Part shown: positions 606-46,320 of the stretch, in pieces
Layout: each line of letters opens with the position of its first letter
How positions within the stretch are numbered: position 1 is the first letter of the stretch
DNA from: Macrocystis pyrifera
Taxonomy: Eukaryota; Sar; Phaeophyceae; Laminariales; Laminariaceae
Length of the DNA: 64,000 bases
Direction of reading: 5' to 3'
Assembly (NCBI GenBank): GCA_031763025.1
Contig: JASSKH010000005.1
Location: 11,798,528 to 11,862,527, forward strand
Position numbers and translations under genes: made by a program
The notes under the pieces: model-generated
Seen by the model: the letters and a program-made list of their open reading frames with translations, nothing else
The model's database searches: none
What the model was told of the DNA's origin: nothing

Positions 606-677
606 GCACTTTAACGGCCTCTATAGGAAACCTTCGAAACCTACAGACCCTCGACATATCGAGAAACAAGCTCACTG
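606..677 (+). CDS. LRR exon 1, 72 bases
   Basis: Acceptor ..ttaccag at 605 and donor GTAAGG at 678. Translation contains TASIGNLRNLQTLDISRNKL and ends in Thr-Gly at the phase-1 boundary. It is the first recognisable LRR in the window. I could not find a start codon or signal peptide upstream, so earlier exons probably lie outside or have diverged. Confidence 0.85.
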
Positions 678-3600
678 GTAAGGAATAAGGTGTATATAGA
701 TCGCTAACATAAGTGGACACATCTCGGTTGTGTTGGTCGTGCGTGATGGGTTGAGGCGTACCTGGTAGGCCTCCATTCGTCCCAGATGCGTGTTTGAGCA
801 CCATACGTGAAATGGAAAGGGGCTCGTACGGCCGTACTTTATGCGTTGCCGCTTTTCTCGTCCTTGGTGGTCATTGTTTATCAGCGGAGGGGGGGGGGGG
901 GGGCGTACTTGTTTGTTGCTTGGCTTAGTTATTTGATCGTTGACCACGCATCCCTTTCGAGACGGAGATTGGCAGGGGGGGGGGGGGGGGGTAGAATAGA
1001 GAATTATCGCTTCATTGGTGGCTCTCATGGTGCAGTTGTGGTTGACGTCATTGGTGGGCAAGATGGCAATGGGCTGGTTCTTTATAGGGGCTACGGGCCC
1101 CACTGACGAAGAGCGCGGGGGGAGTAAGTGAGGAACGATCCTTCCTAATATTATTATATGGTGTCGCCATGGTGTGCAGTGCGACGTAAAGGTCGTGGAG
1201 ACACAACAGTATAAGCTCTCCGTTCTCGCAGCATGTATCATCTGATACGGCAGTAGTCGTCATGCTGATCGGACCCAGTTGAAACAGAGCATACGGCACG
1301 TAAAAAACACGTGGCGTGGACATCGCTCCCCAAGGAGCCACAATACCGTTACACGCACTCCCAGCCACCAGCGTGCACGCATGTAGGAAGTAAAAAAAAC
1401 CTCCCAGCTAAAAAAGGACCTTGTTTCTCCTTTACAAGTATGTGCAAGTACTCCACTTGCACTTCTTATTCATTCCGTTTGTCTTGGGTTTTGCCAATAG
1501 CGTGAGGCGCATGTCGATTCAGGTCCGCCGGCTGTCCCGGTGGTGTGAGTGATAGCTTCTGATCCTGCAATGTACGAATACACAACACTTGTGCGGATCA
1601 CGGCCATGTGAGAGATTCATGGGCAATCTAGAGCTCAAACCGCCAGGTTTTGTGACTCCTTCGGTATAGTGTATGAGAGAAAAGGGACGTCAGTCAGCCA
1701 GCAAACGAATTGTCGGCCCTAACGCGCTACAGAAAGAAAAAGGCATATCCTCGCGGAGAAGAGAAGAGGGGCCCTAGACTGAGACTCTGGGGTACGACGA
1801 ATCAAGGGGCAGGCGATAGCGCCAAGAGCTAAAGGACCGAGAAAGCCTAGTGTTGCTCTCATTAATAGCGCGTCCGATAAACGGTCACAGCCAGCTAGTC
1901 GTGACCACGTTCGTGCCAACCGGTCCGCTCATTTGCTGTCGACTTGTGACGCGACTGTACTGTTTGGAGTGCTTGTTGTTCGAAAGTTAGAAAAAAAAAG
2001 ACAATTAAGATGGAGGAAATGCCCTCGACATAAGGCAAGCGTTGCACACTACGAAGCGTTGGCGCCATCGGTGATACTTTTGGGGCGTTCCCGGATACTA
2101 ATTTACACTCATGTTCCATATACCGCACTACTTTGCTGCCCATGTGTGTTTATTCCATGGGGCGCGGCCGCGCCGTCCATGTATCAGGAGCCATTCCTCG
2201 CGAGCTCGGCGACTTGGTGGCCCTCACAGTCCTTGACCTGCACGGCAACTCCTTGGGCGGTAAGCGCTGCAGAATATGGATAAATCTTAAAAAGGCATAC
2301 TTCTTGGGTCACAGACAGGAGGGTGCGCAAGCGGGGCATTGATGGTGTACCAGCTTACACTATCGCTGTTGCGGCAAGGACATAGGTTGACTCAGTGATT
2401 TTTTATCGTCACGTAGCTCCTGCCAGCATGGAAAGGTGGCTATTTCGGTGACCAGCGCATCGACGTGCTGCTAGCAAACTGCCGAAACACCCTATTAGAT
2501 ACTGAATGTTAGTGCTGTCAAGAAAATAATATCAAACCATACTTATTCAAAACAAATGTTCAAACGTCATCATCAGCAACTGACATATAGCATGCGCGGT
2601 ACACGCCTACCATCCCGGAGTGGTGGAAGCGCGTATCGTACCCTCGTGTGGGAGATGAGAGCAGTGTAGATAGTTGACAGTGTCGCCTTGCCTAAGTTTG
2701 AGTGCCTCTACAGGGTTGATGCAATTGCCGCTCGAATGTGCACTCTCTCACAGCAACGTCCCGAAAGAGATGCGTAATTCAGAACGATTGATGAATTACA
2801 CCTCGTCCTCTCGCCTGCTGCGTTTCCGTCTGTTTTTGGGCGGACTCGTAGAGCGGCGATGGGGTCTTAGGGGCCCCTTTCCGCTTCCGTATTTCTTGTG
2901 GCCGTTATCGTTCTGCGCGCCATCGATTCGCGCGCTTTGTGTAATCCGTTGCCTATGATGTTTTCACTTGTTCCTCCCTCTCGCCCCTGGCCGACCCTCA
3001 CCTCGCGTACTACTAATCTTTCGGCTATCACAACTGTAGGGGAGGTTCCTCACACGTTGGGAAAACTTGCGGGCTTGAAGACACTGGACATCAGCAACTG
3101 CAAGCTGTGTGGGTGAGTACGGCGACGACTCACGTAACCTTCGCGTTCCCCTACGTATAGCTTTCGATTGACTGCGGAGGTTCATATAGCGCTGCTTAGT
3201 TGGGTTCGGGGAGCGCCCCCGGCAATTTGTCAAGTACGTCGAGGCCCATGAAACCGTTTGGGGTAACGCAGCTCAAGGGCAAGAACACAACAACGGCCTC
3301 GAGCAACCTATCGCGTGTTTCACTATCGGGCCCAGCGCCGTGCTTCTCCGGTGCATTCTCCTTTTAAGAGGCAGTCGCAACAAGTCGAATAATATCGTCT
3401 CGCGAAGGAACAGATTGTGTTGCTCAAGTACGGACTACGAGAGTCGTAAGGCAAAGAGGGTGCAACGAACGCGTAGTGGACTTCGGTTAACCAGAAGCAC
3501 CTCATCTTCACATATGTAGTTATGTTTTCGAAATCACGCGAAATACGTGCCGATCGGCGTGCGGGACGGGCGCATGTATGCTGCCCATCGATGTTTGTCT

Positions 3601-6600
3601 CTGCCTACCTACTGTAGTTGAATGAGTTTCCTCTTTCATCTCTTGGTCCGCCATGCGCCAAGTCCCATCCCGAACGAGTTCGAGAGGCTTGAAGCTCTGC
3701 GGGTGCTCCGGCTCGGATGCAACGATCTGACCGGTGAGCCGTGATGCCATGGGTGGCACTTGAACGTGTTACCGAAACCTATTCAGAAAATAGCACGTGT
3801 TCTCCTCGCGGGTATGTCCTCGGATAGCTAAACGCGGCGGGAGCGAGCGCCGAGAGTGCATCGACAGAATTCGACGTCTGTGTGAAACATGCCTCTTATT
3901 AGCAGCCCGGACGTCTGTGTGAAACAGTTTCGATGTTCGTAGCACGACCTTCCGGTCCAGTTGTTTTATGCAGGTGCTGATGGGCCGTGGGTGTGGTAGC
4001 GAGGGATGCCTATTGGCAAACGCTCGTTCTCGTCTGCCGGGGAGAAATCCCCAACACGGCACAAGCATTGGTTTATATTTGCTCGTTCGTTGCGAGCAAT
4101 AAATTAGCTGTTGATACGATTGCTTGGTCGGTGAGGTTCTGTTTGGCGGATAGCTGTGCCGCTATTTCGGTCCATGCGGCCGGAACGGTTATGGACACGT
4201 ATGCATATTCTGCTCCGTTCGCCTCTCCGCGCAACACCAAACACATGAGCTGGTCGCCTTACACCTGGTACGCGTTCTCCGTATTCTCCTCTTTCCCATC
4301 AGCGAGATAGTTAATGCCATCGCCCTGTTCCTTGCCGGGCGTTTCGCATTGTTCATGTAGGTAACATTCCGGAGGGGTTGGCGAAGCTTACCCTGGTCAA
4401 GGAGATAAACCTCAGGGAGAACAAGTTCACCGGTGCGTATTTGTTATTGTCTTGAATGCGGTCATTGATGGGAAACACACACTTTGATAGAACGGTGGGT
4501 TTGAGGTGCTCCTTGCACGCTTCCGTTAGTTGGATAGCAAAAACCCTTGATATATTTTTGCGCGAAGGGAGGGATTCGTTTTGTTCTCGACTAAGTCACG
4601 TGTAAATTTTGTTTTTGGTGTCTGCACGTCGCCATATTTGTCAGTAACGTTGCAGCTCTCTTGCAATCACTGCAGTCATGAATGTGGTACCAAGACAACA
4701 GCAGCTTCCCCAATGACCAGGGTGCGCATGAGCCGTGTCGTTTCCTTCATGGCGTACCGTGATTGGGAAATTAGCGGCAAGCAGCTACCGGACTTGAGCT
4801 AAATTGTCGCTTCATCGATTGTTTGAGTCCCGTCTCTCTACATTTAAATCGTAGCAAACAAAATTGCCGTTGTTGTACGGCGCGCAGCCCCGACACGCAC
4901 GGTGTTGCTGTATACGGCGCGGTGTATCGTGCTCGGCCTGTCGAGCTTCAGGGGTAACTGCAGGCGTAACTGCGCAGAGGGGCGTGCCGCACATGGCCGC
5001 CAATATACCCCGCCACTCCTTATTTAATGGTACATGCCGTTCTGGTCGGTTTTCTTGATATCGGCTCAAAACGAAATCTAATAAGGACTTCGGACTCGTT
5101 GATACGCTTGCACCGTCGTGGGCGGGCGATTTTGTGTGTACAGGGCCTATCTTGGCGGTATCCGGGAGCTGGCCGGACCTCTATATTCTCGACCTGTCCG
5201 GCAACTCTCTGGAAGGTGAACCAGGATAGACGGGCGATACACGGTGGCGTTGTCCCCCCCCACCTATTATATATATTATGGGTTTGGTTGGCGTCTGTTA
5301 GCAACGACACTGTAAAACATGCCGCTCACTACGTGAGCTAGACATCCCAGGGTACCGTTTCTTTTTTCTTTTTTCTTCTTTGGCGGTCTCCCACAGCTGG
5401 TCGTCGAGTTAGATCATTTGTGCGAGGTAAAGAACCTTTACTCTGCACATGGGAGTTGATCGTATCACGTAGTGTTCAAGGTAAGGCACCCAAGAGGCTG
5501 TTACTCCCATTGCTGTCTTTGGAAGTGGCTACACCGAAACTTAAACTAACTCATTGAAGCTGCCATCCATATGCAAGTCCGCCTCACAAGCGGTTCTTAG
5601 TAGGATGCAGCTCACCCTTCATGCGACTCGCCGGACACCTCACGGCGCTTTGCGCGCGGTGTTGTCTGTCTGGTCGGTGAAAACCCGACATGCTCCGCCC
5701 CGGCATTGTAGGGATGCGGGGGTCTATGGTCATACGACTAAGGCCATGCATGAGATCGAGTACATCTCTCTTATCGAGTACCCCCCCCCCCCCCCGGTCG
5801 AATTCAAAGGGCGAGCTTGAATAAGGTGGGATAGCGTAGTTGAGAAAGTATGGAAGGATATAGGAGAAAAACAAGACGATGTTATGCCTGCAGAGAAGTT
5901 TGGGAGGTACAGGGCAGAAGCAGAAGAAAGGATAGAAAGAAGGGGAAGGCTAGCGCTAAAACACAAGGTGAAATTGGAGAAGTACTCGGAGATGTACGCG
6001 GGGTTTAGCGAAGGGATAAAAATGGAAACGTATTGGCACGGCCCAATGGACTTCGCGAAAATGCTGAGACTGCGATTTCGTGTGAGTGACCTGGATCTGC
6101 CCGAAAGAAGGAAGAAGTATATACCAGTAGCCGGGATAAGGAGGAAGTAGATGCACAGATATGCCCGTGTGGCAAAGCGATAGAGAGCAGAACGCACACA
6201 GTAGGAGAATGCGCAATGTACAAGGAGGAACGGGATGTGTTGGAAGAGGAGATGGGGGAAATAGACGAATGTGACATGGAGGAGTTTGGTACACTAGATA
6301 GCAGCGAGAAAACGATCGCTATCCTAGGAGATGCATGGTGGCGACAGGCGGCGAAAGAGGAAGGGGATAAGACTGGCAAAACGTTTATGTAATATATTGC
6401 AACAACGTAATGAGCGCCCAAACGTCGGAGGTGTCTCGAATAGGAGTAGAAACACGGTGCTCCGCCTCGAAAGGGATGCGTGGTCAATGGTCAAATAACT
6501 AAGGCAAACAACGAATGAGTACGCCCCCCCCCCCCCGCCGAATTCAAGATGAAAGGAAGTGGTCCTTGTGGCGGCGGCTATTGGGGTATTTGCTTGCGGT

Positions 6601-9600
6601 TCGTGGAGCACCAGTTTGCACGTGTTTTTCCTGGCTGTGTCATTATGTTTGCATGTCTCCCGGCTGATATCCCCGTAGAGCGAGATAAGCTACATACAGT
6701 ACACGGTAGTTTGTATCGTATTTCCCGAGATCTTCACGACGAATATCGCCTGTTGCCCGCAAGGGGGGGTGATAGCGGTGCACGATGCTGGATATGATTG
6801 GTGACCCTTCCTGGTTTAGAAGCTGCCAGCATGTAGAGTCTAGTGTCTCTGGCATGCTCAACAGGTAGGTGGCTCCGACGGACATTCGGTGCAATCATAT
6901 GCCGGGTGTGTCCATTTCGTTCCCTCCTCTTGTAACATTCAGTGCTGCTTGTGAAAAGCCCGATCTCTCAACGTAGCATTCCTCTGAAATGCCGGCGTTT
7001 GCGGATGCAGGACCACGTAGTGGTGGAACCGATGACCTTCCCCCCCCGCTGACCTTCCTCCTGCCCAATAGCTAAGTTTAAAATAGGCGCTGTGTTTGGA
7101 GATGGCGCTTGAGGCATGACTGCCACAGTGCGTATTTTCGCTTCGCGTGCTATGTGCGTTCTTGCGTCGTTGCCGGAGTTGGCCGTGTGAAGACGGCGTT
7201 TTGCACGAGCAGGCCCTGCTCGTGCCGGCGTTGGTTCCCTCAACGCCGCCTACTTTGATCAAATGGTGACCACTGCGCGTGGTGGACCCCGGCATTGTTC
7301 TCTCCTGTTTGGGTGTGCAGCTCTGTTATTCACTGCAGCTCACGCGCTCGACATCCTCAGCAGGCACAGGGCCTTTGGGGGATCAATGCAGACACAACCG
7401 GGGTGTCGGTTTCGTCAATTTCCTCTCCCCGCCGCTATGTGCAATATGGTATGTCTCGTCACAGGGCATCGCCTGGTAGTAAGCCCACGACCGCGCCCGC
7501 TGATGGCCTCGTGGAAAATCGCTTGGTTGCGAATGGGGCACTGAACGCAGAGTATATCGGTTGAGTCGCTACTATGTATATATCATACCACCGTGTGCAG
7601 TCCACCTCCAGGCCTATCCCGAAGCGCTGAACGGGATTTCGTGCATACGAGCTGCCATTTTCCAACCGTTTGCCTCAAAGGATCCGGCCAAAATACCGAA
7701 CAGCCGTTGTAAAGCTGATGCCCTCCCCACTACCCCCCGAATGGTCATACGACTACGGGCATGCATGACATGAGTACACCCCCCACCCACCCCCATGAGT
7801 ACCCCCCCCCCCCCCCCCCCCCTCCTCTCCGATGCATCAATGCTTGTTTTACGGCGGTGGCAGGGCACATACCCCTAGAGTTGATGGAATTTAAGTCGCT
7901 GACGACCCTGATCTTACAGCGGAATTCACGTATCGTAGGTGAGTTTAGTACTCATTTGTCTGAGACGAGTAGTGCTGTCTTGAGCATGCGCCCGAAAATA
8001 TACATCAATGAATACCATGGTACCTGTTTGTGTTCGTTGCTTTCCCCCAAAGACTGGGCGATTGCTTAGAAAATAACAAAACACGTGATGCGGCGCAGGG
8101 CTAAGATAACTACGGATGTGCCACCCCATAGCACGATGTATGGCCGAAGATGTGGCACGTGGCCCGCGTCCGTGCAGACGCGGTGAGTTACCTGGCTGGT
8201 CAACACCTCTAAGGTGTCGAATATGTGTATGTATTGATTCGGCCCAACAGGCGCCGTACTGCAGCCAAAGGTCGTGCATTTACACTGCTGCACACTCTTG
8301 GGGTACATTTTTAGTGTGCCCGTAGAACCAATATCAGTTCCGGACGCATAGTGCTCCTTGACAGCCGCACTGCTTCAAAAACAAAACATGTTATCAACGA
8401 GAAAAGGCTGCGAGTACTGTCCCTCGGGGGAGCTGCAACTTGGGCAATACCCCCCTCGCGTTCCGTTCGAAACGGCCCGCTACGGAAGAGGTACTAAGTG
8501 AGCGTGCGTAAAGTACAAAGCTCCAGCCTTCTGCTTCTTTTTCTTCGCTTGGACATACTATACGAAGCCTGTTGATGGAGCTGGGATCTCTCGATATAGT
8601 AAGCTTTGTCTACGGCATTGCCTTTCATTTGAAGACCGTTGGGCACTTTCCCGAGGTGCACACGGCATATATGTCACCCCAAGCCGGACACTGTATACCA
8701 GGTAGGCGACAGCCTCACTCGTACATTCGTGGTGTGATTCTGGCCTCAGCCAATGCAGGTGTGGTGTCGCGGCAATGACGAGCTTTCATTCAAGTTTCAT
8801 ACGCTACACGTGACCCAGCTGCCCTCGCACGTGCTGCTGATGCGTCTTTGTGGTGCGCTCAGGTCGTATCCCGTCCTGGATCGGGAGCATGGCTTTCCTC
8901 ACGGAGGTCAACCTTGATGCGGTACAGTTGGGTGGTAAGCAGCGTGCACGGGCTTCCGCCCATAGAAGGACAAATTTAGTAGAGGGTGCCACCGGCCTTC
9001 TCGGAGACGGGGCGATAATGTCCATGGTTGACCGGCGAGCGAAAGCACCATATTAGCCCAGGAGCGATAGTGGAGGATTTTGATAGCGGCGTACGTGAAG
9101 TCTATCGGCGGGGGCGTTGGATTTCTAGATACTATCCCAGTGTATTTCCCCTTGGGAATCCCTTATCCGTAGAGTCGTGTCGCTGTACCACTCTCGGAAC
9201 ACCACGTGGCGACGACGATACTGGCAGTTCAAAAGCGCATGTGAACAATATAATATTATTGTCACAAGGATACTGTAGTGCAATTACTAAAATGCCAATC
9301 TTCAAGTAATTATGAAGTACCTCTACTACGCATGTACTAAGCACCATAGGGCTCCCATGAACGTCCAGTTGGAGTCCCATGGGAGCACTCTGATCTCATG
9401 GGAGTCCCATCCGAGTCCCATGGGAACTCTATGACTTCATGGGGGACCCATGGGCCAGCACCGTAGCGGGAGTCCCATGGGAGAGCCATGAGCCATCATC
9501 GCAAGCCTAGAAGAACCCATGAGAATTCCAGGGGCCAGCACAATACACCTATGGGAGGCCCACGGAACTCACGGGAGACTCATGGGGGTCCCATGGGAGG

Positions 9601-12600
9601 GACAAAGGTACACGAAGGCACATAGTCGTCCCATGGGAGACCCGTGGGGGGGGCATGATAAATCCATGGGGAAGCATTGTGCGTCCCGTGGAAGACCCAT
9701 GGGAACACTGCAAACCTGTGGGGGCCCCATGAAATTCCGATTGGCAATATCTTTCATTCCAAACCCGTGGGAGGCCTACTGGGGTCCCGTGGGAGTTCCG
9801 TGGGGGACCAAAGGGAGCTCTAAACCCATTGAAGACCCACAGAAGTCCCGTGGATGACCCATGGAAAACCCATGGGCAGCACATGGGCCAGCATTGTGCT
9901 TACTACAAAGTCATAAGAGCCCTGTGAAAGTCCAATTGGTCATCGCTCTGATCCCATAGGAATCCGATGGTGGACTTATGGGAGGATATCGAACCCGTGC
10001 GAGACCCATGGACCAGTACTAGGATTCCCATGGGCATCGCATGAGAGACCCATGGGAGCACTACAGCTCCATGGGAGCCCCATGGGAGTTCCGTGGGCCA
10101 GTACCATTATTCCATGGAAGTACAATGGGAATCCCATGCTAGACCCACAGGAGAAAATTGAACCCATGGAAGACCCATGGGAGACCCATGGGAGACCAAT
10201 GGGAGTCTCATGGGCCAACACTATGATCCCATGGGAGATCCACGGGAGCACTACAAACTCGTCCGAGCCCCCACGGGAGTCCCATGGACAAGCACTGTAT
10301 AGCCTCGAAGTCCCATAGGAGACCCATGGGAACACTCTTAACCACTGGATAGCCCATGGAAGTCCCATGGGTCTCCCGCGGGGCTCCGGTGTGCCTCCCA
10401 TGTGATTCGGATGGGTCTCCCATCGGTCGTCGGTGGGTTTGTGGTGCTCCCACCAGACTCCCCTGGGACTCCTAACTCTGGTCCATGGCTCTCCTACGGC
10501 TCTCTCATGTAACTCTCATGGATCTCCCATGCGACTTCCGTGGGCTTTCCATGGGCTTTTACTGTGTTCCCTGGGTCTCCCATGCGACTTCCAAGGATGT
10601 ACAGTGCTGGCCCATGGGCCTGCAGTTATCCCATGGAACTCAAATGGGACTCACATGGGACTCCCATGGAACGTCCGTGAGACTTCGACGGGTTTGTAAT
10701 GTTCCCATGGGGCTCCCATTGGTGTATTGGTTCTCATTGGTGTATTGTGTATAATGCTGGGCCATGGAACTCCCATGGGTCTTCATGAGCGTGTAGCAAT
10801 TCATGGGTCTGCTCAGCGACTTCCAACGGTATGCAGTGCTGGCTTAAGGTACTCCCATGGCGCTCCCATGGGTTTGGTGACTCTCTTAACTCCCAAGGCT
10901 GGCCCTCGTTCTTGGATCGCTCATAGATCTCCCAGGGGACCACCATGGACCTCCCATGGGTTTACAGTGTTCCTGTCGGGTTTCCCATGAGACTCCCGTG
11001 GGACTCCCATGTGTTTGTAGCGCTTGCTCATGGACCTCCCTCGGGTCTCCCATGGCAATCCCGTGGGTCTTCCACGGTTTTATATAGCAGGCCCACAGAT
11101 CTCCCATGGATTTCCCTCGGGTCTCCTCCCTTGGGCCCTCCATGGGATTTCCATGAGTGATAGTGCTGCTATGGGACTCACATTGGACTCTCCGCCACGG
11201 GTCTCCCATGGGATCACAGTCATGTTGTAGTTTAAACTCCTATGGGTCTATCATGGGAGTCCCATAGGACTCCTGTGGGCTTTGAGTGCTAACCCATGGG
11301 ATTCTCATAGATCTTCTATGAGCTCACAGTGCTTGCATGGGATCCCCATGGGACTCCCACGGGTATCCTGTGGTCTCTGAGGGGATTTCTAGGGGACTCC
11401 TATGAAAACACCATGAGAGGCGCGCCAAGTACCCATCAAAAACCTAAACATAGTAAATATGCGCATCACCCGCCTCCCCGCTGTGCTCCGATTGTGCCCT
11501 TCATGAAAATATCGCAAACAACGCCGGATGTACGGGGCCCTCTCTCAGCATGTTCCCTGCTCTGCCCCGCGTGTATCACCATCATCTACTCCACCTTACA
11601 AAGGCGAGATCCCCAAAGAGATTGGGCAGCTGACAAGGCTTACGCGACTCAGCCTCGGCTTCTGCCAGCTTGAAGGTGAGAGCACCTCGAGTCATGACAG
11701 CTTGAAGGTGAGAGCACCTCGAGTCATGACGCGTGGAATAAGACAAGCGGGAAGCATAGTGCTGAGTGCTGTCCAGCTACGATAGAGACACAATGTTGCT
11801 TGCTGCCTGTTGCTGTGCGATTGTACCACTGTGCGGCCGAATTCCACAGGTTCTATATATAATTTGGGCGTCGACTTGGTATTGCTCCAAAAAACTACAT
11901 GCAAGTGTCTTTGTGTGCGAAGGAGCGCCCCCTCGCTTTTAGGTTGGTCTCGCCGTGACTTCAGGCTGGAGCGAGACCTTACGGAACACGTAGGATGTCG
12001 TCTCGTTCACAGTTCAGGCACGCACGACATGTGTTTAGATGGGATCTTCTGTGTGGGCACTAAATTTGCTTGTTTAGCAACTTCCAGGCTTCACAACCGT
12101 CGTTCGTTTACATGTGGGCCTCTGGGCCGTGCCAGGTACCCTGCCGCCCGAACTGGGACAACTGAGGTCCCTCGAGCATCTGATCCTGCCCAGCAACAAC
12201 ATTACAGGTGTGATGCCTCTTGCGAGAGAAGTACGTGCTGCCCACGTGTACAAGGCGACCGGTCCATATCTTGACCACTCTGTCTGGTAGTTTCCCGTGC
12301 TGTGTTACGACTGCCTTCGATTTCTGTACATATTTTGTTTCGGCACACGGGGTGCGAAAGGACTCCCAGGGTGGGGCTCTAGAGGGCTGTACTCGTATAA
12401 CATAAGACGTACCCGAGAGTAATGTCTACTCGTCGTGGCTTATACACGTTACTACATACAATGCCATAAGGCTATATAGCAGTTGTGCACCAGCCCCAAA
12501 AAATGAACAGGATCGAACGATATCAAACGATATATACTGTACCCCCAAATATACCAGCATTTCGTCAATCGAGCCCCTTTTCCGCTATTGTTATTGGAGA

Positions 12601-13521
12601 GTTTTTTTCCCGGAAATACAGGCATTGTTTTCGCCCATTTTTTTCATCTCCCAGATTTTCCTGGGTTTTTTTTTCAAATATATGTGCTTAACTCTCCTGA
12701 CAACTTTCCCTCTGAAGAAGTTTACAAATCGTGACAGAACGCCTCCGCATCTTGATACAAATTTCAAATTTCCAAAATTTGGGATTTTGAGGGGAAAATG
12801 CTCTCCGGGAGAAACTTACAGTTTTGAACTGCGTGTAACACCGCCCCCATACATAGGCGCAATCCCCAAAGAGATTGGGCAGCTGACAAGGCTTACGATA
12901 CTCAACCTCGGCTCCTGCAACCTTGACGGTGAGAGCGCCTTGTGTCATGATGATGCCGAAGCACGTTTGCGGGCAGCGTTCCCTGGATGCCGTCCAGTCA
13001 TAGTAGACGCAATGCGGTATGGTCCATTCAGGATACTTTTTACAAAAGGGGTATAGGGTACATACATGCATCTACAGTGAATGAACTTAAAATTTCAACA
13101 TTTTTAGCTCCCTAGACGACACAATATTTAGTATACCTTATAGTAACGTAGCACGATGGCTTCGACTTGGCGTCATGTCAAAAGTTCGTGTTTAAGTGCC
13201 TTCGTGGGAGCGAAGGGCGCCTATTAATAGCTGTATTTGGGAAGGATTTACCGTGGCTCTGGACGGCAGAAAGACCGAGCGGACTGTCGCAAAATGTCGC
13301 CTCGTTCACAATCCACGTGCTCAGCCGTGTATTCCGGTAAAAACCCCCGTGTGCGCACTCGACGACGTTGCGTGCTTGGCAGATTACCCACTAACCGCAT
13401 CCTCTCGTGTGTGTTGCGTGTTTTTGGTCTGGCCTTTCGGCCATGCCAGGTACCCTGCCCCTCGAACTAGGTCAACTGAGGTCCCTCGAGCATCTGGTCC
13501 TGCACGACAACAAGATGACAG
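606..13521 (+). CDS. Leucine-rich-repeat gene built from single-LRR 72-base exons (partial)
   Basis: Twelve separate exons each encode one LRR of the plant/stramenopile type (Gly-x-Ile-Pro-x-x-Leu-Gly-x-Leu-x-x-Leu). They are 606-677, 2188-2259, 3040-3111, 3662-3733, 4361-4432, 5144-5215, 7864-7938, 8863-8934, 11604-11675, 12136-12207, 12857-12928 and 13450-13521. Each begins with two bases completing a Gly codon and ends with the first base of the next, so all introns are phase 1 and each exon is a self-contained module. Spliced together they would give an LRR solenoid of about 288 residues, probably an extracellular or ligand-binding surface. Ectocarpus LRR-GTPase (ROCO) and LRR receptor genes are known to carry such shufflable LRR exons. 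I found no signal peptide, membrane segment, GTPase or kinase part attached here, so the class is open. Two exons have poor splice sites, so the gene may be partly decayed. The first and last exons of the transcript are not identified. Confidence 0.8.
678..2187 (+). other. Intron 1 of the LRR array, with a LINE-tail fragment
   Basis: No coding signal on the + strand. Between two poly-G runs (about 888-903 and 977-991) lies a minus-strand copy of the LINE 3' tail also seen near 6430-6540 and 49575-49690; it includes the block complementary to GTACGC-polyC and ACCACGCATCCCTTTCGAGAC. The rest holds nothing I recognise. Confidence 0.5.
2188..2259 (+). CDS. LRR exon 2, 72 bases
   Basis: Acceptor ..gtatcag at 2187 and donor GTAAGC at 2260. 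It encodes IPRELGDLVALTVLDLHGN followed by Ser-Leu-Gly-Gly, a textbook plant-type LRR with all consensus leucines. It is one of the best preserved modules in the array. Confidence 0.9.
3040..3111 (+). CDS. LRR exon 3, 72-base frame with a displaced donor
   Basis: Acceptor ..caactgtag ends at 3039. It encodes VPHTLGKLAGLKTLDISNC, then Lys-Leu-Cys-Gly. The 72-base module ends at 3111, but the GTGAGT donor starts at 3113, so splicing there would give 73 bases and shift the frame. Either splicing uses the weaker GG position, the exon is skipped, or it is a decaying copy. Confidence 0.65.
3662..3733 (+). CDS. LRR exon 4, damaged acceptor
   Basis: It encodes IPNEFERLEALRVLRLGCN and ends at a good donor, GTGAGC at 3734. 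The base pair before the 72-base frame is AA, not AG. The only nearby AG (3661-3662) would leave 71 bases and break the frame. Probably a dead or skipped exon. Confidence 0.6.
4361..4432 (+). CDS. LRR exon 5, 72 bases
   Basis: Acceptor ..ttcatgtag at 4360 and donor GTGCGT at 4433. It encodes IPEGLAKLTLVKEINLREN followed by Lys-Phe-Thr-Gly. Both splice sites and the LRR consensus are intact. Confidence 0.85.
5144..5215 (+). CDS. LRR exon 6, 72 bases, N-terminal half frame-altered
   Basis: Acceptor ..gtgtacag at 5143 and donor GTGAAC at 5216. The C-terminal half reads WPDLYILDLSGNSLEG, a good LRR. The N-terminal half reads Pro-Ile-Leu-Ala-Val-Ser-Gly-Ser instead of the usual consensus, but a shifted frame there reads Gly-Gly-Ile-Arg-Glu-Leu-Ala-Gly. 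Two compensating single-base changes would explain this while keeping the length at 72. Confidence 0.75.
5240..5800 (+). mobile_element. Poly-C-tailed dispersed element, copy 1
   Basis: About 550 bases that recur in inverted orientation at 28910-29445, with shorter copies near 28080-28340, 28606-28815, 44705-44815, 45640-45740 and 48655-48710. Shared blocks include GTTGATCGTATCACGTAGTG versus its complement, the CAAGCGGTTCTTAGTAGGAT block, and a terminal block of CATACGACTA, GAGTACATCTC and poly-C. No coding frame is conserved, so it is probably a non-autonomous element or satellite-like retrocopy. Confidence 0.65.
5803..6540 (+). pseudogene. 5'-truncated non-LTR (LINE) retrotransposon 3' end, copy 1
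   Basis: This matches 48965-49690 closely. It encodes the tail of a LINE ORF2: a basic Arg/Glu-rich stretch, the motif HGPMDFAKMLRLRFRVSDLD, and, after a frame break near 6130-6150, a knuckle CPCGKAIESRTHTVGEC (C-x-C-x9-H-x4-C). Such a knuckle is typical at the C terminus of LINE reverse transcriptases. The 3' UTR ends in GAGTACGC followed by poly-C (about 6523-6537). There is no reverse transcriptase core, so it is dead. It lies within an LRR intron. Confidence 0.75.
7864..7938 (+). CDS. LRR exon 7, 75 bases
   Basis: Acceptor ..gcggtggcag at 7863 and donor GTGAGT at 7939. It encodes IPLELMEFKSLTTLILQRN, then Ser-Arg-Ile-Val-Gly. It has one codon more than its neighbours, in the variable loop after the conserved Asn, and remains a 1-1 phase module. 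Good splice sites suggest it is used. Confidence 0.8.
8863..8934 (+). CDS. LRR exon 8, 72 bases
   Basis: Acceptor ..gtgcgctcag at 8862 and donor GTAAGC at 8935. It encodes IPSWIGSMAFLTEVNLDAV, then Gln-Leu-Gly-Gly. The Asn of the LxxN motif is replaced (Asp-Ala-Val), unlike most other modules. Confidence 0.85.
9345..11420. repeat. 2-kb degenerate satellite arranged as a large inverted repeat
   Basis: The block is dominated by variants of CCCATGGGAGTCCCATGGGA, so it is very rich in CCATGG. From about 9345 to 10370 the + strand carries the ATGGGAG/GACCCATGGG sense. From about 10370 to 11420 it carries the complementary CTCCCATGGGTCTCCC sense. A longer-order word, GGGCCAGCAC with variants, recurs every 100-200 bases in the left arm, and its complement GTGCTGGCCC recurs in the right arm. 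The arms are similar in length (about 1.0 kb each). It sits in the intron between LRR exons 8 and 9 and has no convincing coding frame. Confidence 0.85.
11604..11675 (+). CDS. LRR exon 9, 72 bases (cassette copy A, first exon)
   Basis: Acceptor ..ccttacaaag at 11603 and donor GTGAGA at 11676. It encodes IPKEIGQLTRLTRLSLGFC, then Gln-Leu-Glu-Gly. It is nearly identical to exon 11 (12857-12928). The donor region is duplicated just downstream (see 11666-11729). Confidence 0.9.
11666..11729 (+). repeat. 32-base tandem duplication covering a splice donor
   Basis: The unit CAGCTTGAAGGTGAGAGCAC...TCATGA (32 bases) occurs at 11666-11697 and again at 11698-11729 with no visible change. It contains the last bases of LRR exon 9 and its GTGAGA donor, so the transcript has two equal donors 32 bases apart. 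Confidence 0.9.
12136..12207 (+). CDS. LRR exon 10, 72 bases (cassette copy A, second exon)
   Basis: Acceptor ..ggccgtgccag at 12135 and donor GTGTGA at 12208. It encodes LPPELGQLRSLEHLILPSN, then Asn-Ile-Thr-Gly. It is closely related to exon 12 (13450-13521), including flanking intron sequence. Confidence 0.9.
12857..12928 (+). CDS. LRR exon 11, 72 bases (cassette copy B, first exon)
   Basis: Acceptor ..acatag at 12856 and donor GTGAGA at 12929. It encodes IPKEIGQLTRLTILNLGSC, then Asn-Leu-Asp-Gly. Differences from exon 9 cluster in the variable xxLxLxxC/N positions that form the LRR concave face. Confidence 0.9.
13450..13521 (+). CDS. LRR exon 12, 72 bases (cassette copy B, second exon)
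   Basis: Acceptor ..ggccatgccag at 13449 and donor GTACCG at 13522. It encodes LPLELGQLRSLEHLVLHDN, then Lys-Met-Thr-Gly. It is the last well-formed LRR exon I can find; the 3' end of the gene is not identified. Confidence 0.9.
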
Positions 13522-16500
13522 GTACCGTATGGTGCCTGCAATTTTGAGAAGTACGTGTTGCCCACGTGTAAGAGGTTGCTTTGTCTATGCACCGTTCTCC
13601 TTTTTTCGTTGCCCCCATCTGAATCACGTTCGGCTCCTGTAGTTAATGGTGTGCCGTAGGGTGCACAAGGACCGCGTGCGCGTTTTTTAGTACGATGTAT
13701 TGTGACACAGTGCACATGGCTCGAAAGGGCTTTCCTAAAATGTACTGGTACGATACACTACAGTACGACGTCGTATGGTCGATGCAACTATAAATTAGTG
13801 TTGCCGCTTGACCAACGTACGAGTGTGCAAGGACGGTGAATCGGCACCAAAACATAATCAGCGTGATAGATCGAACGCTATCAAGCGATAGGCGGGTATA
13901 AATATCATATGCCGACAGCCAGGACTCAAGCCGATCGTTTTCCCGACAGGGACAAAGGCGTTCTAGGATAGAGGTATCACATTTGGGAAAAAATAAACTT
14001 TCTGAGCCACACTGGCGTTTTCACCGGGCGCCAGTTGAAGGATGCCTACCGGTATGTGACTTGTTATCTACATTGTTAGGGATAATATGTGCGTACACGT
14101 AGGAGATACGTGCAGCATCAGTCGTATTCATATATTTGTCCCCATTGAATTCCGCATTGTACCTTGGGGGGACATAGGAACCTCAGAAAAAGTGGGTGAA
14201 CTTCTATCGTAGAACGCCTCGGTGTCAGATTCAGAATGGCGTATAGTCTCTTGACGCTACCTCGGAGGCGGCGGGCCAGGTCGAATGGAGCAGCTCCCTC
14301 CATAGGAAATCTCTTAGTTCCGCAGCGGACAGCGACAACCTCCGGCGTCGTCGTCATTAAGCTCCTGATCGACGCTGACAATATCCGCGCTTCAGCCGGG
14401 GACAATGCAGAACCTCCGGCCCCCGATAGACTCGCATGCGCATTTCGGTGGGGCTGTAGCGTCAACCGGCTCACGGGACACCCGTCCTCGAAGAACGACA
14501 ATGCTTCCACTGTCAACTATGCAAGGGTGTCAAGTTTGGTGTTCGCCTCTGATCAATAATCTAAGACATATTGGCTTCAATTGTTCTTGCTGAACTGTTC
14601 CTTGAACCACTTCACAGACCACGGTCGACGATGTTTTGGGGGTCCACAGCAGGTTGTCTTTGCGGTCTCGAGGGGTTGATACCTCCTGAATTTGAACGCG
14701 TGTAACGTGGTGACCATCTACAATACGTCCCCGCATGTTTGCCTGGGTAACGCGTATTCCGACAATACTGACAAGTGTGCTCGCCTTGGTGTACGACGGC
14801 TCGACAGGTTACATCCCACGCGCTTTGCTGAAGATACCAACTCTACGCACATTTCATCTCGAGAAGAACCACTTCGGAGGTGACAAGGACTTCATACAGA
14901 CTTCCCAAGCATAACGAAATTGTTTTTGAGCCTGGGATATGTACATGGAGGATCGCGAACCAAGCCGGCCCTCACCGAGTAGAAATCACGAATCATTTGT
15001 ACATGATGTTCCCATTAACATCAATATCGTTGGAATGTCTTCGTTGTTTATCCGATGCAATGGCCACACCTCTCTACTTTGTACGACAAGTGCAAACGAT
15101 GACGGGACCTATTTGCGTAGGAATCTTCGGCAAAATTTCGTTGGCCAATATTTTTCATGCCGGCTTGGTAAGGCGTTTTCTTCAGTTATGACGTGTGTTG
15201 CCGTCGACGCAGCCTCTCGCAAATAGTTGCAGTCCTCCCCCGCCAGCTCGATTCGCCCTCTCTCTTATTCGTCACATCTCATCTATCCCCGCCCGCTCCT
15301 GCCCCCCCCCCCACTACTGTTGACGCCTGGCTATCCTCGGTCCCTTTCTGCACGTTTGCCTCGCGGGTGACCATCCACTCTCGCCCTTCCCCTTTCTTGG
15401 TGTGTGCGAAACACAACGTGTACGCCTACTGGATGCAGTAAGAATACGGTTATTGGGCGGCACGGGGAACACCAGCACGATCAAAAAAATGCTTCCTAAG
15501 GACTGCGACGTGAGGCTGTGATACAAAAAAGTGGACACTCCTTCGCACCGTTGAGGTCTACCACCCTCTGCAAAGGTTTGGGTTGATACACACTTGATGA
15601 GTGTGCGGTATATACCAGGTAGCCGTGAAGGAAGTAGAACCTTATATGTCTATGCTCAACCTTTACCCCTGAGAACACTGTGTGCGCAATACTCGTAGCG
15701 CCTCTACTGTAGAGTCGCTTGGACAGATAATGTACGCGTGCGAGCGTCGTTAATACAAGCTTCATGCCACGGTTCGTGGTATTGCCTGCCCAGAGACGCG
15801 TCGTGATTGATGTTTCCTGTCGTGCGCGATTTTCACGCACGAGTGCCTTTTGGGATATTGTGTTTGGGCACGATGCTGTTGAGTTGATCAAGATTTCTTG
15901 TACGTTTTGGTTCCAGCAGCCTGCACAGGAACGACAGTGTTTCTTGACGGGAACGTTCACCGGAGTGTAGGCATCGTGTCCATAACGTTTGATTGTTGCC
16001 AGATCGTTTTTGTGTAGTGCGGGTCTCATGTGGTTATCACATCATACCGGATGGAGATTTTGTACTGTGAATAGCTCCTGCTCCCAAGCGTATGTTGACA
16101 ACGCTTGTCCTGTGAAGCAGCAAGGCCGTAGAGCGAGAGCAGTGTGTGTGCTTATGCAGTACGTCCGCGACGGCGATCCTCGGGTGCTTGCCGTGCAGCA
16201 CATTCCTTCGTAATGGTGCTCTACTCGAAGATATTTCCCTGGGTCAAGAGTGCTTGTTTTAGATGTGTGTGGGAGAGGCGTTCGCCCCAAACGACTCTTG
16301 CTTCATTCAGTGTATGGTGCCTTCTTTTGGGGAGGTATAGGGAAGGCGTTCTGTCCAGCATGCGCCCTTGGCGTGGATGAATTGCCTGACGTAGGTTCCT
16401 TGGATACTACAGTATGTATGTGTAGGCGTACATCAACGCTGGTCAGACTCTGCATTTTGATAAGAACGAAGAATGGGCTGAACACCGGATTCACCCCGAA

Positions 16501-18937: not shown

Positions 18938-19043
18938 ATCATGGGGGGCCATAGTAAATAGGACCAAATATTGTTGGTAAAAAGAGAGAAATATATATAT
19001 TTTTTGTGTGTACCGTAGGTCCTATTTTACTCAGTCAGGTCCC
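18938..19043. mobile_element. MITE, copy 1 (degenerate right end)
   Basis: Left end GGGGGGCCATAGTAAATAGG and the internal ATATTGTTGGTAAAAA and TTTTTGTGTGTACCGTAGGT blocks match the family described at 22619-22721. The right inverted repeat is damaged (TTTTACTCAGTCAGGTCCC). Confidence 0.7.
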
Positions 19044-19992: not shown

Positions 19993-20115
19993 GCTCGAGC
20001 AAGGAACAAATACAAAACGCCTCAAGAACCAATAGAAGCCCCCCATAATTTGATTTCGTTGATCCCATCTCGATGATACGTTGCAGACTATTAGCAGGGA
20101 AGGACAAGCCTGCGT

Positions 20116-20241
20116 ATGCCCCCAGCTAGCACTAGCATTGCGTCAAGCAGAGGCTCGGCTTCGTTTTTCCGTGGCCGTTCTTCAGCTGCCTCCGGCCGAT
20201 CCCGCGTTGTCCTGTTCATAGTAAGCGGAACGCTTGCAGTA

Positions 20242-20272
<31 letters not shown>

Positions 20273-20835
20273 CGCCGCTCCTGCCGCTGTTGCGAAACAT
20301 GGGATCGCTGCTGCATCTACAGGAGATTGGACCAGCGGGGCAGGCCCAGATTTCCCAACACATTGCGAAAGACTCGGTAACAACAAGAACAGCGGATGGC
20401 GGCTATATTTGTCGCGCTGTTGACGAGTGCAATGGCAGGGACTGGCGTGTCGTGGCGGATGAGATGCTCGCAGAGGCGGGGGGGGAATCTGTCCGCAGAA
20501 CGGCGGTTGCTAACGGGAACGATCGTGAAACGCAAGCCGCGAGGATCCCGTTCTTCGGTAACGGGAACGCTGAGAGCATGCGGGGCGTCGCCAGCCATCT
20601 CGACCATAGGGTGGATGAGTACCGCCAGGAGCTCGTCAAAGTTATGCAGGTGCGAGCCCTCTCGGCTGTGTCCCCGCTGACACTGATTGGTGTTCGTACG
20701 GGTACTCGTAAAAACATATGATACGTAGTCTTTCGTTTTGGGGCATCGCTGCGGTAGCTTGGATGAAAGCTTGGTCCCTTGCTCTTCAACGGGGCATCGC
20801 TGCCGTATAGCTTGGACGCAAGCTTCCCTTGCTCT

Positions 20836-20867
<32 letters not shown>

Positions 20868-22197
20868 GGCAGCGGCAGCAGCAGCAGCAGCAACAATAAC
20901 AACAGCACGGCAACAATCCTATCATGACCTACGGGCGTGAACCCTTCGCCGTGTTCAAATGTCCAAATGGGTTGGCGCATACCAGGTATAGCATACCAGG
21001 TAGGGAACAGCATACTCACACTCAATACCAGCAGGTACTCGATGCCTCTGTTACGAGTACAGGACTACCGGTATGTACGAGTACGATCGTTGCCGTGTGC
21101 CGTGCCGTCCTCCTCGACCGTGGCCCCTGATGCCAGAGACAGGCGGTGGAGGTGCAGAATCAACGCAACGCAATAAGGCGTCGGCACGCCTTCGTTCACG
21201 CATGCAGGGGGCTTGCAAAGTCCATGTCCCATGTTCGAGACGACCTTTGATACCTCGTAAATCGTTAGCATGACCGTAAATCCTTAGCTTCAAAATACGG
21301 CACTCGTAGTCCCGGTACTTATGTTACAAATGTGATAAGAAGACTCGCCATAAAACGACCCCCACATCCCCACTACATGTGTGTCGAGTTCTCGTTCTTC
21401 CGGGGCGGGTTGAGTCTCATTTTTTGTTGCAATGCCCTTTTCGACTCGAACACCATCACCTGCGGACCGGCTTCTCGTAAATATACACGGTCCACGGCCT
21501 GATATATACGCTGATATACACCAGCAGTATAGAGTACCGCCCCGCCGGCCGCACCCACAGCAGTTCGTAGTATTAAGAGTGAGAGGGTTTCCAGGCACAC
21601 CGCTGACGTATCAAAGCAGCGGTTTCACGCTTCCCTCAGCCCCCAGAGACTCACGATGTTCTAATGCGCGGAACGGATAATTACAACGATGTGCTCTTTC
21701 GTTTTGCAGTGAACAGACACAACAGCAGTACGAGTGGTACCCAACTTTGCTATACCCGTCTGATATACATACATACGAGTATAGCAAAGTTAGGAGGTAC
21801 AAGTGGGGCTTCGCCGTGGCGGGCTCACGCCCGCCTGCGGCTGCGAGCATGGTCGTATTGGCGAAGAGGCGTATAATCATAAGTGAACCGGAGCCGCCTA
21901 CAAACAACCGAACTGGCAAGGGGTGTACGGTAAAGTACGTACATTCGACATAAAAAAGATTCACGGTAAGCACTGCTGCTGTATCAGTATGAACAGCACC
22001 TCGGATGGCATCGCGAGGTATATGTCGCGAAAATGGCTGCAAATTACGTCTACCATAAGCCGAGGCTCGCTCACCTCGAAGCACCAACAGCATTGTCCCT
22101 GTATTTATTGGCGGTATGTGCTGCTGCTGCTGTACTATTAATACGAACTCCTCGGGTGGCAGGTGGCAGGTGTACAATGACGAACAGCAGCAACAGC

Positions 22198-22237
<40 letters not shown>

Positions 22238-24983
22238 GAATGTATACGCACAGCAGCAGACTCACATAAATAAATACTACTGTAAGTACATACCTGGTAC
22301 CTGGTATACACGTATTGACAGTACTGAATATGCCATATGCCATATGCATACTCCCCTGGTACCTGGTATACACGTATTGACAGTACTGAATATACCATAT
22401 GCCATATGCATACTCCTACATACAACAATACTACGGGCACAATACTCGTACGATACCATCAGCACCAGCAAACATCAGTATCATACCATTACGGGGGTCC
22501 ATAGTTAATAGGACCAATGGAACACACAAAAACCTATATATTTACCTATTTCTACTGACAATATTTGGTCCCATTAACTATGGACCACGGTAATAACAAG
22601 TATACGACGCACATACTATTACGGGGGTCCATAGTAAATAGGACCAAATATTGTTAGTAAAAATAAGTTAATATATGTTTTTATGTATGCCATAGGTCCT
22701 ATTAACTATGGACCCCCGTAATAAAGATCATATGATACTGGTACTGCTGTATGAGCTGCTGTGGTACTGGTACGCATATACGGGTGTCGGCAGCAAGTAA
22801 TCCTTAAAAAAAAACAGTGTCGTCGACATAAAAACGGAATTTTGGATATTGATATATTTGTGGACCAGGGGAGAACGTATGTGCGGTACGAGTCCGAGTG
22901 CGCACGTGCATATAGTTCAGAACAGCGTAGACTTTTGCAGGACAATAAACAAAAGGCAAGCTCTCGATCGCCACATCGTTGATGGCCTACGCATAAATAA
23001 TTCGGAACAACTTACACTTTTGCAGCAAAAAAAAGCAAAAGGCAAGCTCTCGATCACCACATCGTTGATCAAAGTTGAAGCGTCCACCCCCCGAATGCTC
23101 ACGGCACGAGCGCATGTGAGGCCTCGCCCGGTGCAAAGAAGGCCGGCGGGAACGTTTGCGCATGAATCGACCGAAAACGTTCACCGCCTCGCGAGAAACG
23201 TCCCGACATGCTCATGCGTACATCGCAAGGTCCGAAGAGGTAATTATCCCGGACGGGACTGTCGCAAACATATGTATGGCGAGCCTGTGATGAAGGCATG
23301 ACATCCTCAAGGAAAAACACGCCCGCGAGACACGGCTTGGGCACGGCCGAGGCTGCCCTTGGCAGAGTGGGCAGAGTAGGGGTCGGCGAGCACGATGAGG
23401 GAGTTTCGGGCCGAGAGGCCCACCTCATCGCGAGTTATCGCGAACACGGCTCAAAAATATGTCTAAGAAAAGCGGAGACTCGCTCACGGCGAAGCACCAA
23501 CAATATCATCCCTGTATTTATATACCAGGTACTAAGTAGGCATACAGTGGTTGTTCCCCGGAACTGCGAGTGCGATCGCACGCCGAGTACAAAACTCTGT
23601 ATATTGAGCCAGGTACCACAATGTATCGGTTGCGCCTCGGGATCGTTTCCCCTTTCCTCCCGCAGGGGTTGGACCTCATCGTCAACGGCCTTGAAGAGAG
23701 ACGGCAGCGAAGGTGAGGACGGGGGACAGGGACTTGCCGGCGCAGGGGGTGCGCCGCCTTGCCACCAAGCTAAGGCAAAAAATGGACAAGACTCCTCCCC
23801 TTTGGCAGGTGAGAAACTAACGTTCCCGGTACAAACACGCAGTCCTTTTTGAGCTTAGTAATGTAATGCTAAACCTACACACCCTGGAGCATGCGCGATC
23901 AAAGTATGTAGCACACCAATTCAGGTAAGAGAGGAGTGTTGAGAAAAAAAAACGACAGCATCACAGCTCTGAGGGTTTTTTTTTTCTTCTTTTTTCCAAT
24001 ATAAGCACTTAAGATCATAACCATATTTCAGGGATTCGGTTTTTTGGCGGCACTAAATTCCAGGTGAATTTCGAATTTCGGTTTTGTTCGAAGGAAATTT
24101 CAATTGATCAAAGAGCCAACGACGTCCTTTCTTACGCTGTTTTTGAAAAACACGTCGCAAAACTTTGCGCACTGGTTCAATACGTAGACGGAGGATTTCG
24201 GATGCTCCCTTATTCGAACGGCCGTGATTGGCTTTCGTTGTAGGCGGAGACGTCAACGACCTGGAACCTCACTTAACCGGTGGATGAAAGGCGGTACATC
24301 GAAATTACACGCTACGGAGATTCAACGAAAGACCGAAAGAAATATATTGTGAAACCCATGTACAGGCTTTTATGGCATGTCGTGCAAAGCGGCGTAAAGA
24401 AAAAACGATCTTACTGTAGTTAGAAATTGGTAACTTTCTCTCAGTTGTATTGCGATACTGTACTGCAGTATGTACCTACTGTAGTATATACGAGGTATAG
24501 GTATTCTCTGAGCCAAAATTGTCGAAATCCCCCTGATAACCGTGTGCACGCATGTCATGCACGCTGGTGTCGGATGAATCCACTTGTGCCGTTTATTTAG
24601 TATGATAAGCTCCACTTCGCCTCCGCACCCAGGTCGTGGTTTTGTGGTGATATCGGCGATGACGAATGAGTATGCGAATTAGAGGTGTTATCCCCTGGAC
24701 CCATAGTTGGTGGTAAACCGTTTCGCCAGTCAGCAAAAAATGCTGTCCTGTTACAGCTGCTGCCGCCGCTGCTGCTGCTATTCCTGCCGCTGGTGATTCT
24801 GATGCTGAATAAATCCCAAACGACTTCTTGAGCCTTACATGCTCCCTTGTCAGCGGCGACTGTCCGGTGCGGGTAGTACATACACAGCTTCTCCGTTCTC
24901 TCAACAATGTCATCCCAGCTCAGTGTATGTCTTCCAGCCCGCCGACTGGAATGAGCCGCGCTTGCCCCCACCGTGTGCCTAAG

Positions 24984-25021
<38 letters not shown>

Positions 25022-28874: not shown

Positions 28875-28914
<40 letters not shown>

Positions 28915-29590: not shown

Positions 29591-29622
<32 letters not shown>

Positions 29623-46285: not shown

Positions 46286-46320
<35 letters not shown>

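Follow-up and report, generated by a model that had tools for sequence, protein, structure and literature searches.

Results

Exon Structure of the LRR Array

The analyzed window, 64,000 nucleotides of Macrocystis pyrifera contig JASSKH010000005.1, contains at least 13 exons encoding a single LRR each, all on the plus strand; the left end of the array lies outside the window (Table 1). The twelve such exons that the initial annotation had placed in 606–13,521 are borne out, and a thirteenth is located just beyond this range. The further statement that nearly all are exactly 72 bases long holds for nine of these twelve (10 of 13 with exon 13) and fails for exons 3, 4, and 7. All 13 exons are preceded by AG and followed by GT. 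When joined, they form a single open frame of 313 residues, recognized as LRR_1 in Pfam (E = 3.5e-40). The consensus LxxLxxLxxLxLxxNxL fits the array; among the 12 units counted, all but exon 7, eight carry the Asn.

Table 1. Features of the LRR array and its surroundings in the window.
Feature	Position	Strand	Remarks
LRR exon 1	606..677	+	72 nt, phase 1-1; leftmost in window, possibly not the first of the array
LRR exon 2	2188..2259	+	72 nt, phase 1-1
LRR exon 3	3040..3112	+	73 nt, phase 1 start, phase 2 end
LRR exon 4	3663..3733	+	71 nt, phase 2 start, phase 1 end; locked to exon 3
LRR exon 5	4361..4432	+	72 nt, phase 1-1
LRR exon 6	5144..5215	+	72 nt, phase 1-1
Dispersed repeat, intron 6	5277-5795		copy at 28899-29431, 91% identity
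Dispersed repeat, intron 6	5806-6536		copy at 48963-49684, 84% identity
LRR exon 7	7864..7938	+	75 nt (25 residues), phase 1-1
LRR exon 8	8863..8934	+	72 nt, phase 1-1
CCCATGGG palindrome-rich satellite	9340..11420		fills most of intron 8
LRR exon 9	11604..11675	+	72 nt; duplicated cassette, copy 1
32-bp perfect tandem duplication	11666..11730	+	spans exon 9 donor site
LRR exon 10	12136..12207	+	72 nt; duplicated cassette, copy 1
LRR exon 11	12857..12928	+	72 nt; exon 9 copy, 63/72 nt identical
LRR exon 12	13450..13521	+	72 nt; exon 10 copy, 62/72 nt identical
LRR exon 13	14808..14879	+	72 nt; last LRR exon found
Carnosine N-methyltransferase-like gene	20116..29955	+	ATG at 20116, stop after last matching exon

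The scan for LRR exons applied a simple LRR score to AG–72 nt–GT stretches in phase 1, and hence takes in only the ten 72-nt exons and not exons 3, 4, and 7. At threshold 7, it yields 10 matches in 1–15,000 of the plus strand and none on the whole minus strand, while 300 dinucleotide shuffles of 1–15,000 give a mean of 0.027 and a maximum of 1; at threshold 6, there are 11 matches vs. a shuffle mean of 0.21. Of these three, exon 3 scores clearly by itself in the LRR profile (19.7 bits), exon 7 modestly (11.2 bits, and under the inclusion threshold in the DNA profile), and exon 4 weakly (6.2 bits, with noise up to 4.4); the calls of exons 4 and 7 are supported in part by where they lie and by the reading frame. 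As exons of the array itself went into both profiles, their matches follow by construction. No further LRR exons were seen above noise in the six-frame scan and the DNA profile of the window; LRR-like scraps noticed by eye near 18.2 kb were recovered by neither profile scan.

Published descriptions of brown-algal LRR exons are taken here from excerpts of Teng et al. (2024; PMC11378527). The excerpts describe the shuffling LRR exons of brown-algal LRR-ROCO genes as 72 nt long with the LRR in nt 3–71, citing Zambounis et al. (2012) for these exons. The layout of the array agrees with this description, which concerns candidate immune receptors: in its 72-nt exons the LRR occupies nt 3–71, and 11 of 13 exons are in phase 1, exons 3 and 4 meeting in phase 2. 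Phases are named differently in the two works, phase 1 here being phase 2 in the excerpted text.

Intron Phase and the Pair of Exons 3 and 4

The same phase at both ends is observed for 10 of the twelve exons initially reported (11 of 13 with exon 13). The claim that all of them are of phase 1-1 is wrong, as exons 3 and 4 join at a phase-2 intron, and it is the same two exons whose lengths are not multiples of three, contrary to what had been stated for every exon. Among 20 donor/acceptor combinations tested for the intron between them, four are open, all in phase 2, and 3112/3663 is the only one giving 24 + 24 residues. Exons 3 and 4 cannot move singly because neither is a multiple of three and the phase-2 junction locks them. 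Thus, the proposition that every exon is free to be deleted, duplicated, or relocated in frame does not apply to these two taken one by one. One two-exon cassette has been duplicated in frame (see below). Free shuffling has a limit here, two exons being tied by a shifted intron. The surplus nucleotide of exon 3 and the missing one of exon 4 restore the frame, as would be expected if the joined protein were under selection.

Duplication of Exons 9 and 10

The pair of exons 9 and 10 is duplicated in tandem as exons 11 and 12, in the order A-B-A′-B′ and with homologous introns, clearly by one copying event. Compared with 100 shuffles each, the intron alignments have z = 9.4 (introns 9/11) and z = 7.3 (introns 10/12), vs. 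z of 0.4–1.3 for four unrelated intron pairs taken as a control; upstream of the cassette, z is 0.2 (600 nt) and 1.6 (200 nt). Array-wide turnover is not supported: when the 12 units other than exon 7 are compared two by two, pairs outside the duplicated cassette have at most 12 of 24 residues in common.

The copied pairs differ by 12 residues in all. Six of these changes are at the four LRR positions described in the Teng et al. (2024) excerpts as concave-face and positively selected (p = 0.0019), and one is at the nine scaffold positions (p = 0.016); the scaffold deficit is not significant with the six selected-site changes set aside (p = 0.15). Half of the changes since copying are at positions proposed to touch the ligand, their ligand-facing role being taken from the same excerpts. 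The pooled pN is 0.137 vs. pS of 0.119, dN is not clearly greater than dS, and relaxed constraint would yield a similar pattern of changes.

Across the array, in the 12 units of equal length, variability extends beyond the four selected positions. With 3.08 bits each at positions 5 and 12 and 2.69 at position 2, these sites vary as much as positions 15, 17, 19, and 20 (2.52, 2.52, 2.63, and 3.25 bits, respectively).

Divergence of Exons and Introns in the Copied Pair

Synonymous differences in the copied exons amount to 4.5 of 37.7 sites (~12%), while the cores of the homologous introns differ at 423 of 847 aligned sites (~50%). This gap suggests gene conversion limited to exons, that is, short tracts comprising an exon and a few tens of flanking bases being copied between neighboring LRR exons; judged from the sequence comparison, we regard such conversion as doubtful, although conceivable. 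If it did operate, LRR exons would be refreshed as exon-sized units while the introns go on diverging, and introns would serve as borders for conversion, too, beyond splicing.

A somewhat better, still tentative account, for the cassette only, is that the exons look young and the introns old because splicing signals or codon use constrain the synonymous sites, or because the introns are poorly aligned. Consistent with it, the similarity of the exon pairs continues past the exon borders for some tens of intron bases, the region of the splicing signals, and introns 9/11 and 10/12 align only with many gaps. On the other hand, pS is 0.63–0.82 in the four other exon pairs tested, hence, such exons do not generally resist synonymous change; dN in the copied pair is as high as dS; and even the best-matching 100-column intron stretch differs at 35% of columns, more than the synonymous sites do (p = 0.008 vs. 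5/38).

The Neighboring Gene and the Search for Signaling Domains

On its right, the LRR gene is probably bounded by the carnosine N-methyltransferase-like gene. In the protein search with this methyltransferase-like gene, the first three matches with an organism name, among the best 120 of 217, are from brown algae; over about query residues 6–120, identity is 82% with Laminaria digitata and 53 and 55% with two Ectocarpus species. For this stretch of this one gene, the matches point to a brown-algal host nearer to kelps than to Ectocarpus; Ectocarpus itself as the host is not supported.

Between the array and the neighboring gene, no ROC-COR was detected, in a scan that is weak on short exons. 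In 14,881–20,117, Pfam (E ≤ 10, all three plus-strand frames) gave zero families, with the HMMER filters dropping most matches above about 0.1; a PDB search with one of the three frames gave no match; and the P-loop GxxxxGK[ST] is absent from the plus strand downstream of the array. Raw-frame Pfam scanning missed all eight LRR exons in 1–10,001; the same kind of scan did recover the multi-exon methyltransferase gene. Similarly, no kinase or NB-ARC domain was listed in the plus-strand frames of 14.6–34.6 kb, by a scan likewise weak on short exons, the only entries there being the methyltransferase and two unrelated matches below the cut-off. Nothing was found by Pfam on the minus strand in 1–20,001 and 24.6–34.6 kb. 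Rfam at gathering thresholds gave no match. Minus-strand open reading frames at 42–48 kb had been guessed to encode von Willebrand A domains; Pfam on raw frames gave no confirmation.

Protein Relatives of the Array

The LRR array was used as query in two protein searches, with 8000 scored candidates each, which gave the best 120 of 2440 and the best 120 of 5356 matches. The matches listed are 26–45% identical; most are LRR proteins that are unnamed or come from plants or bacteria, and one named brown-algal protein, P0074, is among them. Within the length limits of the search, the matches listed include no close orthologue, and no relative was found in viral contigs.

Discussion

LRR exon shuffling has been proposed as a route to new binding specificities in brown algae. 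The excerpts of Teng et al. (2024) report no somatic recombination locus or recombinase. We consider the array most probably to be a brown-algal LRR gene of the shuffling-exon kind, encoding LRRs only and seen from an internal repeat to the last LRR exon. An LRR-only gene is likely because no ROC-COR or other signaling domain was found before the next gene, in scans weak on short exons. Each plant-type LRR of 24 residues normally corresponds to one exon, the intron lying inside a Gly codon (phase 1); therefore, a unit copied together with its flanking intron adds one in-frame repeat. A single tandem duplication, about 1.25 kb in size, copied exons 9-10 into 11-12; of the subsequent residue changes, half are at the four selected concave-face positions and 1/12 on the scaffold. 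The product is then probably a protein of LRRs only and would belong to the class considered in the excerpts of Teng et al. (2024) as a possible reservoir for LRR shuffling. It may act in immune recognition, the labels "receptor" and "immune" for the array being putative.

Alternatively, the exons could be untranscribed relics in a decaying pseudogene or silent reservoir, at most serving as donors for other loci, which seems improbable. Introns 6 and 8 are indeed filled by dispersed repeats and by the satellite, in which all 24 CCCATGGG occurrences of the window start; pooled dN about equals dS in the copied pair; and the Teng et al. (2024) excerpts mention, along with the LRR-only reservoir, many pseudogenes among ROCO genes. 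However, each of the 13 exons has an open frame and intact splice dinucleotides, the frame survives the 73/71-nt pair, and one of the 12 changes in the copied pair is on scaffold residues. Slightly less probable still is a ROCO GTPase gene (LRR-ROC-COR) of which the array supplies the LRRs. These would then form the ligand-binding half of such a cytoplasmic switch, and the ROC-COR exons would lie in 14,880–20,115, missed by the scans on account of their shortness or divergence. The exons do have the length and register described for brown-algal ROCO genes in the excerpted text, and the raw-frame scan is poorly sensitive to short exons, but the Pfam, PDB, and P-loop searches of this interval or downstream were empty within their limits, and the next gene, beginning near 20,116, was itself found by the same kind of scan.

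The locus provides a concrete event for study, a tandem two-exon cassette with measurable exon and intron divergence and with half of its changes at proposed binding positions.

Among known systems, brown-algal NB-ARC-TPR genes are similar in having repeat exons with proposed shuffling, per the excerpts of Teng et al. (2024), and differ in that their repeats are of the TPR type and come with an NB-ARC domain; no such repeat or domain was found at the array. P0074 of Ectocarpus sp. 6 (unnamed product, partial) also carries GxIPxELGxL units of 24 residues, including one that recurs exactly; however, compared at the protein level, its best unit matches to the array are 8–14 of 24 residues (12 units compared). 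In Saccharina japonica, the excerpts describe 15 sequences with shuffling 72-bp exons outside ROCO genes, most with LRRs only; these resemble the array in having LRR exons with no detected ROC domain, a likeness drawn at the level of the class and not locus by locus. Brown-algal LRR-ROCO genes, as described there, share with the array one LRR per 72-nt exon, located in nt 3–71, a nearly uniform phase, and changes at concave positions, here in the copied pair; unlike them, the array has no ROC-COR found alongside, two phase-breaking exons, and a 75-nt exon 7.

LRR exon array

Scanning positions 1–15000 of the plus strand for phase-1 exons of 72 nt bordered by AG and GT, with LRR spacing, yields 10 matches at the score cut-off of 7. 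In 300 dinucleotide-shuffled versions of these positions, the average is 0.027 and no version exceeds one match. Lowering the cut-off to 6 gives 11 matches, against 0.21 on average after shuffling. On the minus strand, no match at score 7 occurs anywhere in the window. A profile built from these ten exons and applied to the six frames of the window shows 13 LRR units, all on the plus strand, in 605–14878, with a best remaining score of ≤4.4 bits; the ten seed exons match by construction, and the others score 19.7 (exon 3), 11.2 (exon 7), and 6.2 bits (exon 4). In a DNA profile, exon 7 falls under the inclusion threshold. All 13 exons have AG/GT borders and, when joined, form a single open frame of 313 residues that matches Pfam LRR_1 (E 3.5e-40) and LRR_8 (E 1.6e-30).

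The twelve LRR exons counted in 606–13521 by the initial annotation are borne out, and a 13th lies outside this range; since the window starts inside the gene, 13 is the count for the window only. The near-uniform length of 72 nt holds for ten of the 13 exons, the exceptions being exons 3, 4, and 7 (Table).

Table. Features of the window
Feature	Position	Strand	Copies	Details
Exon 1	606–677	+		
Exon 3	3040–3112	+		73 nt
Exon 4	3663–3733	+		71 nt
Exon 7	7864–7938	+		75 nt
Exons 9, 10	11604–11675, 12136–12207	+	exons 11, 12	cassette
Exons 11, 12	12857–12928, 13450–13521	+		cassette copy
Exon 13	14808–14879	+		
Dispersed repeats, intron 6	5277–6536		28899–29431 (91%), 48963–49684 (84%)	
Satellite, intron 8	9340–11420			2 kb
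32-bp tandem duplication	11666–11730			perfect
Short repeat	18936–19054		~22.5–22.7, 37.1, 46.4, 48.4, 50.8, 61.6 kb	both orientations, 78–84% identity
Carnosine N-methyltransferase-like gene	20116–29955	+		end of stop codon at 29955
Several long ORFs	42000–48000	−		one containing VLFVIDTSGSM
Trinucleotide array	55040–55588		~183 of AGT	nearly perfect, 98% matches

Exons 3 and 4 also depart from the pattern previously ascribed to all exons (phase 1-1, multiples of three), as they meet at a phase-2 intron. Among 20 combinations of intron borders (five donors by four acceptors), four are open, all in phase 2, and 3112/3663 is the sole open one leaving both repeats whole. The length deviations of +1 and −1 (sum 144 nt) mean that the frame survives only if both exons are retained or both skipped; the proposal that any exon can be lost, copied, or moved does not extend to either of them singly. 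This pair is a limit on shuffling, and its frame compensation suggests that the joined frame matters.

Duplicated cassette

Exons 9 and 11 are identical at 63/72 nt, and exons 10 and 12 at 62/72 nt. Similarity extends to the introns (intron n follows exon n): z = 9.4 for intron 9 with intron 11 (6.3 after trimming 40 nt per end) and 7.3 for intron 10 with the start of intron 12 (5.4 trimmed), versus 0.4–1.3 for four unrelated control pairs; for the 600 and the 200 nt preceding the cassette, z is 0.2 and 1.6, respectively (100 shuffles for each comparison). The simplest history is a tandem duplication of ~1.25 kb, starting just before exon 9 and including both exons, the intron between them, and most of intron 10.

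The satellite, immediately ahead of the cassette, fills most of intron 8 and is rich in the palindrome CCCATGGG; its unit direction flips between the left and right halves, with the switch at ~10200–10500. Through the 32-bp tandem duplication, the last bases of exon 9 and the adjoining splice donor are present twice; the second donor, if used, would add 32 nt and shift the frame.

The copied exon pairs show 4.5 synonymous differences in 37.7 sites (3/23 at fourfold sites), whereas their intron cores differ at 423/847 aligned sites (474/909 with two other alignment settings). Even the best intron stretches differ by 35% (100 columns, p = 0.008 vs 5/38) and 30% (60 columns, p = 0.045). Such young exons and old introns fit exon-limited gene conversion after the duplication, as judged from few sites. 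Poor intron alignment is a possible source of the contrast. Constraint on synonymous sites is also possible, but four other exon pairs have pS of 0.63–0.82, hence LRR exons here are not generally resistant to synonymous change.

Exons 9 and 11 differ at residues 2, 15, 17, 20, 22, and 24, and exons 10 and 12 at residues 5, 17, 19, 20, 22, and 23 (24-residue numbering). In brown-algal ROCO genes, nt 3–71 of the LRR exon encode a 23-residue LRR with four positively selected sites, according to Teng et al. (2024; PMC11378527); these sites, 14, 16, 18, and 19, become 15, 17, 19, and 20 here, assuming that their numbering starts at exon nt 3. Six of the 12 changes fall at these positions (p = 0.0019), an overlap noticed after the site set had been taken from that paper. 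The nine scaffold positions carry one of the 12 changes (p = 0.016); with the six selected-site changes removed, this deficit is not significant (p = 0.15). Two observations weigh against a strong reading. Among the 12 equal-length units, positions 2 (2.69 bits), 5, and 12 (both 3.08 bits) are on a par in variability with positions 15, 17, 19, and 20 (2.52, 2.52, 2.63, and 3.25 bits); and pN of 0.137 and pS of 0.119, pooled over both copied pairs, make neither purifying nor positive selection clear.

Outside the copied pair, any two units have at most 12/24 residues in common (12 units; exon 7 omitted), thus the array holds one clear duplication event, not many. The idea of a shuffling array is supported by the cassette, but not as regards wider turnover; exon movement between loci and a function as a receptor or in immunity are putative. 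In an Ectocarpus sp. 6 LRR protein (P0074), one unit is exactly repeated, hence turnover is real in the group; the present array is no extreme case of it.

Gene boundary and other features

The downstream gene on the same strand matches Pfam CARME (E 9.2e-29) and PDB 5yf0. A partial Laminaria digitata protein aligns with it from residue 1 onward, beginning at the ATG at 20116, and the stop codon follows the last matching exon. Barring nested genes, the end of the LRR gene falls within 14880–20115. Among the best 120 of 217 matches to the downstream gene, the first three with organism names are the brown algae Choristocarpus, Laminaria, and Hapterophycus, with Ectocarpus lower. Over query residues ~6–120, identity is 82% for L. 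digitata, 53 and 55% for two Ectocarpus species, 54% for Hapterophycus, and 44% for Choristocarpus; a EukProt protein shows 55% there and 82% over the rest of the query. These matches place the window in a brown alga, probably one other than Ectocarpus, although a single gene is too little to identify the species.

In 14880–20115, Pfam finds no family in the three plus frames at E ≤ 10 (HMMER filters drop most matches above ~0.1), PDB no match in one of these frames, and the plus strand has no GxxxxGK[ST] motif. Plus frames of the wider 14.6–24.6 kb give two unrelated Pfam matches, both under their own cut-offs. In a control, raw-frame Pfam over 1–10001 returned no family despite eight LRR exons; the failure to find ROC-COR is thus no proof that it is missing.

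By eye, the intron 6 repeats resemble the end of a non-LTR element. VLFVIDTSGSM, read by eye as a von Willebrand A motif, received no confirmation from raw-frame Pfam.

Comparison with brown-algal LRR exons

Among the open-licence PubMed Central articles listed in literature searches, judged by titles and abstract openings, this layout is treated only by Teng et al. (2024; PMC11378527). In their account, each LRR of brown-algal ROCO genes occupies a separate 72-bp exon, and Saccharina japonica carries such exons in 15 non-ROCO sequences as well, most of them LRR-only. Three details of the present locus are worth keeping: the locked exons 3 and 4, the cassette duplication, followed by changes of which half lie at positions proposed for binding, and the age contrast between exons and introns. 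The array shares with those ROCO genes the one-LRR exons of 72 nt and the register (their phase 2 being phase 1 here), and is a well-formed member of the published kind.
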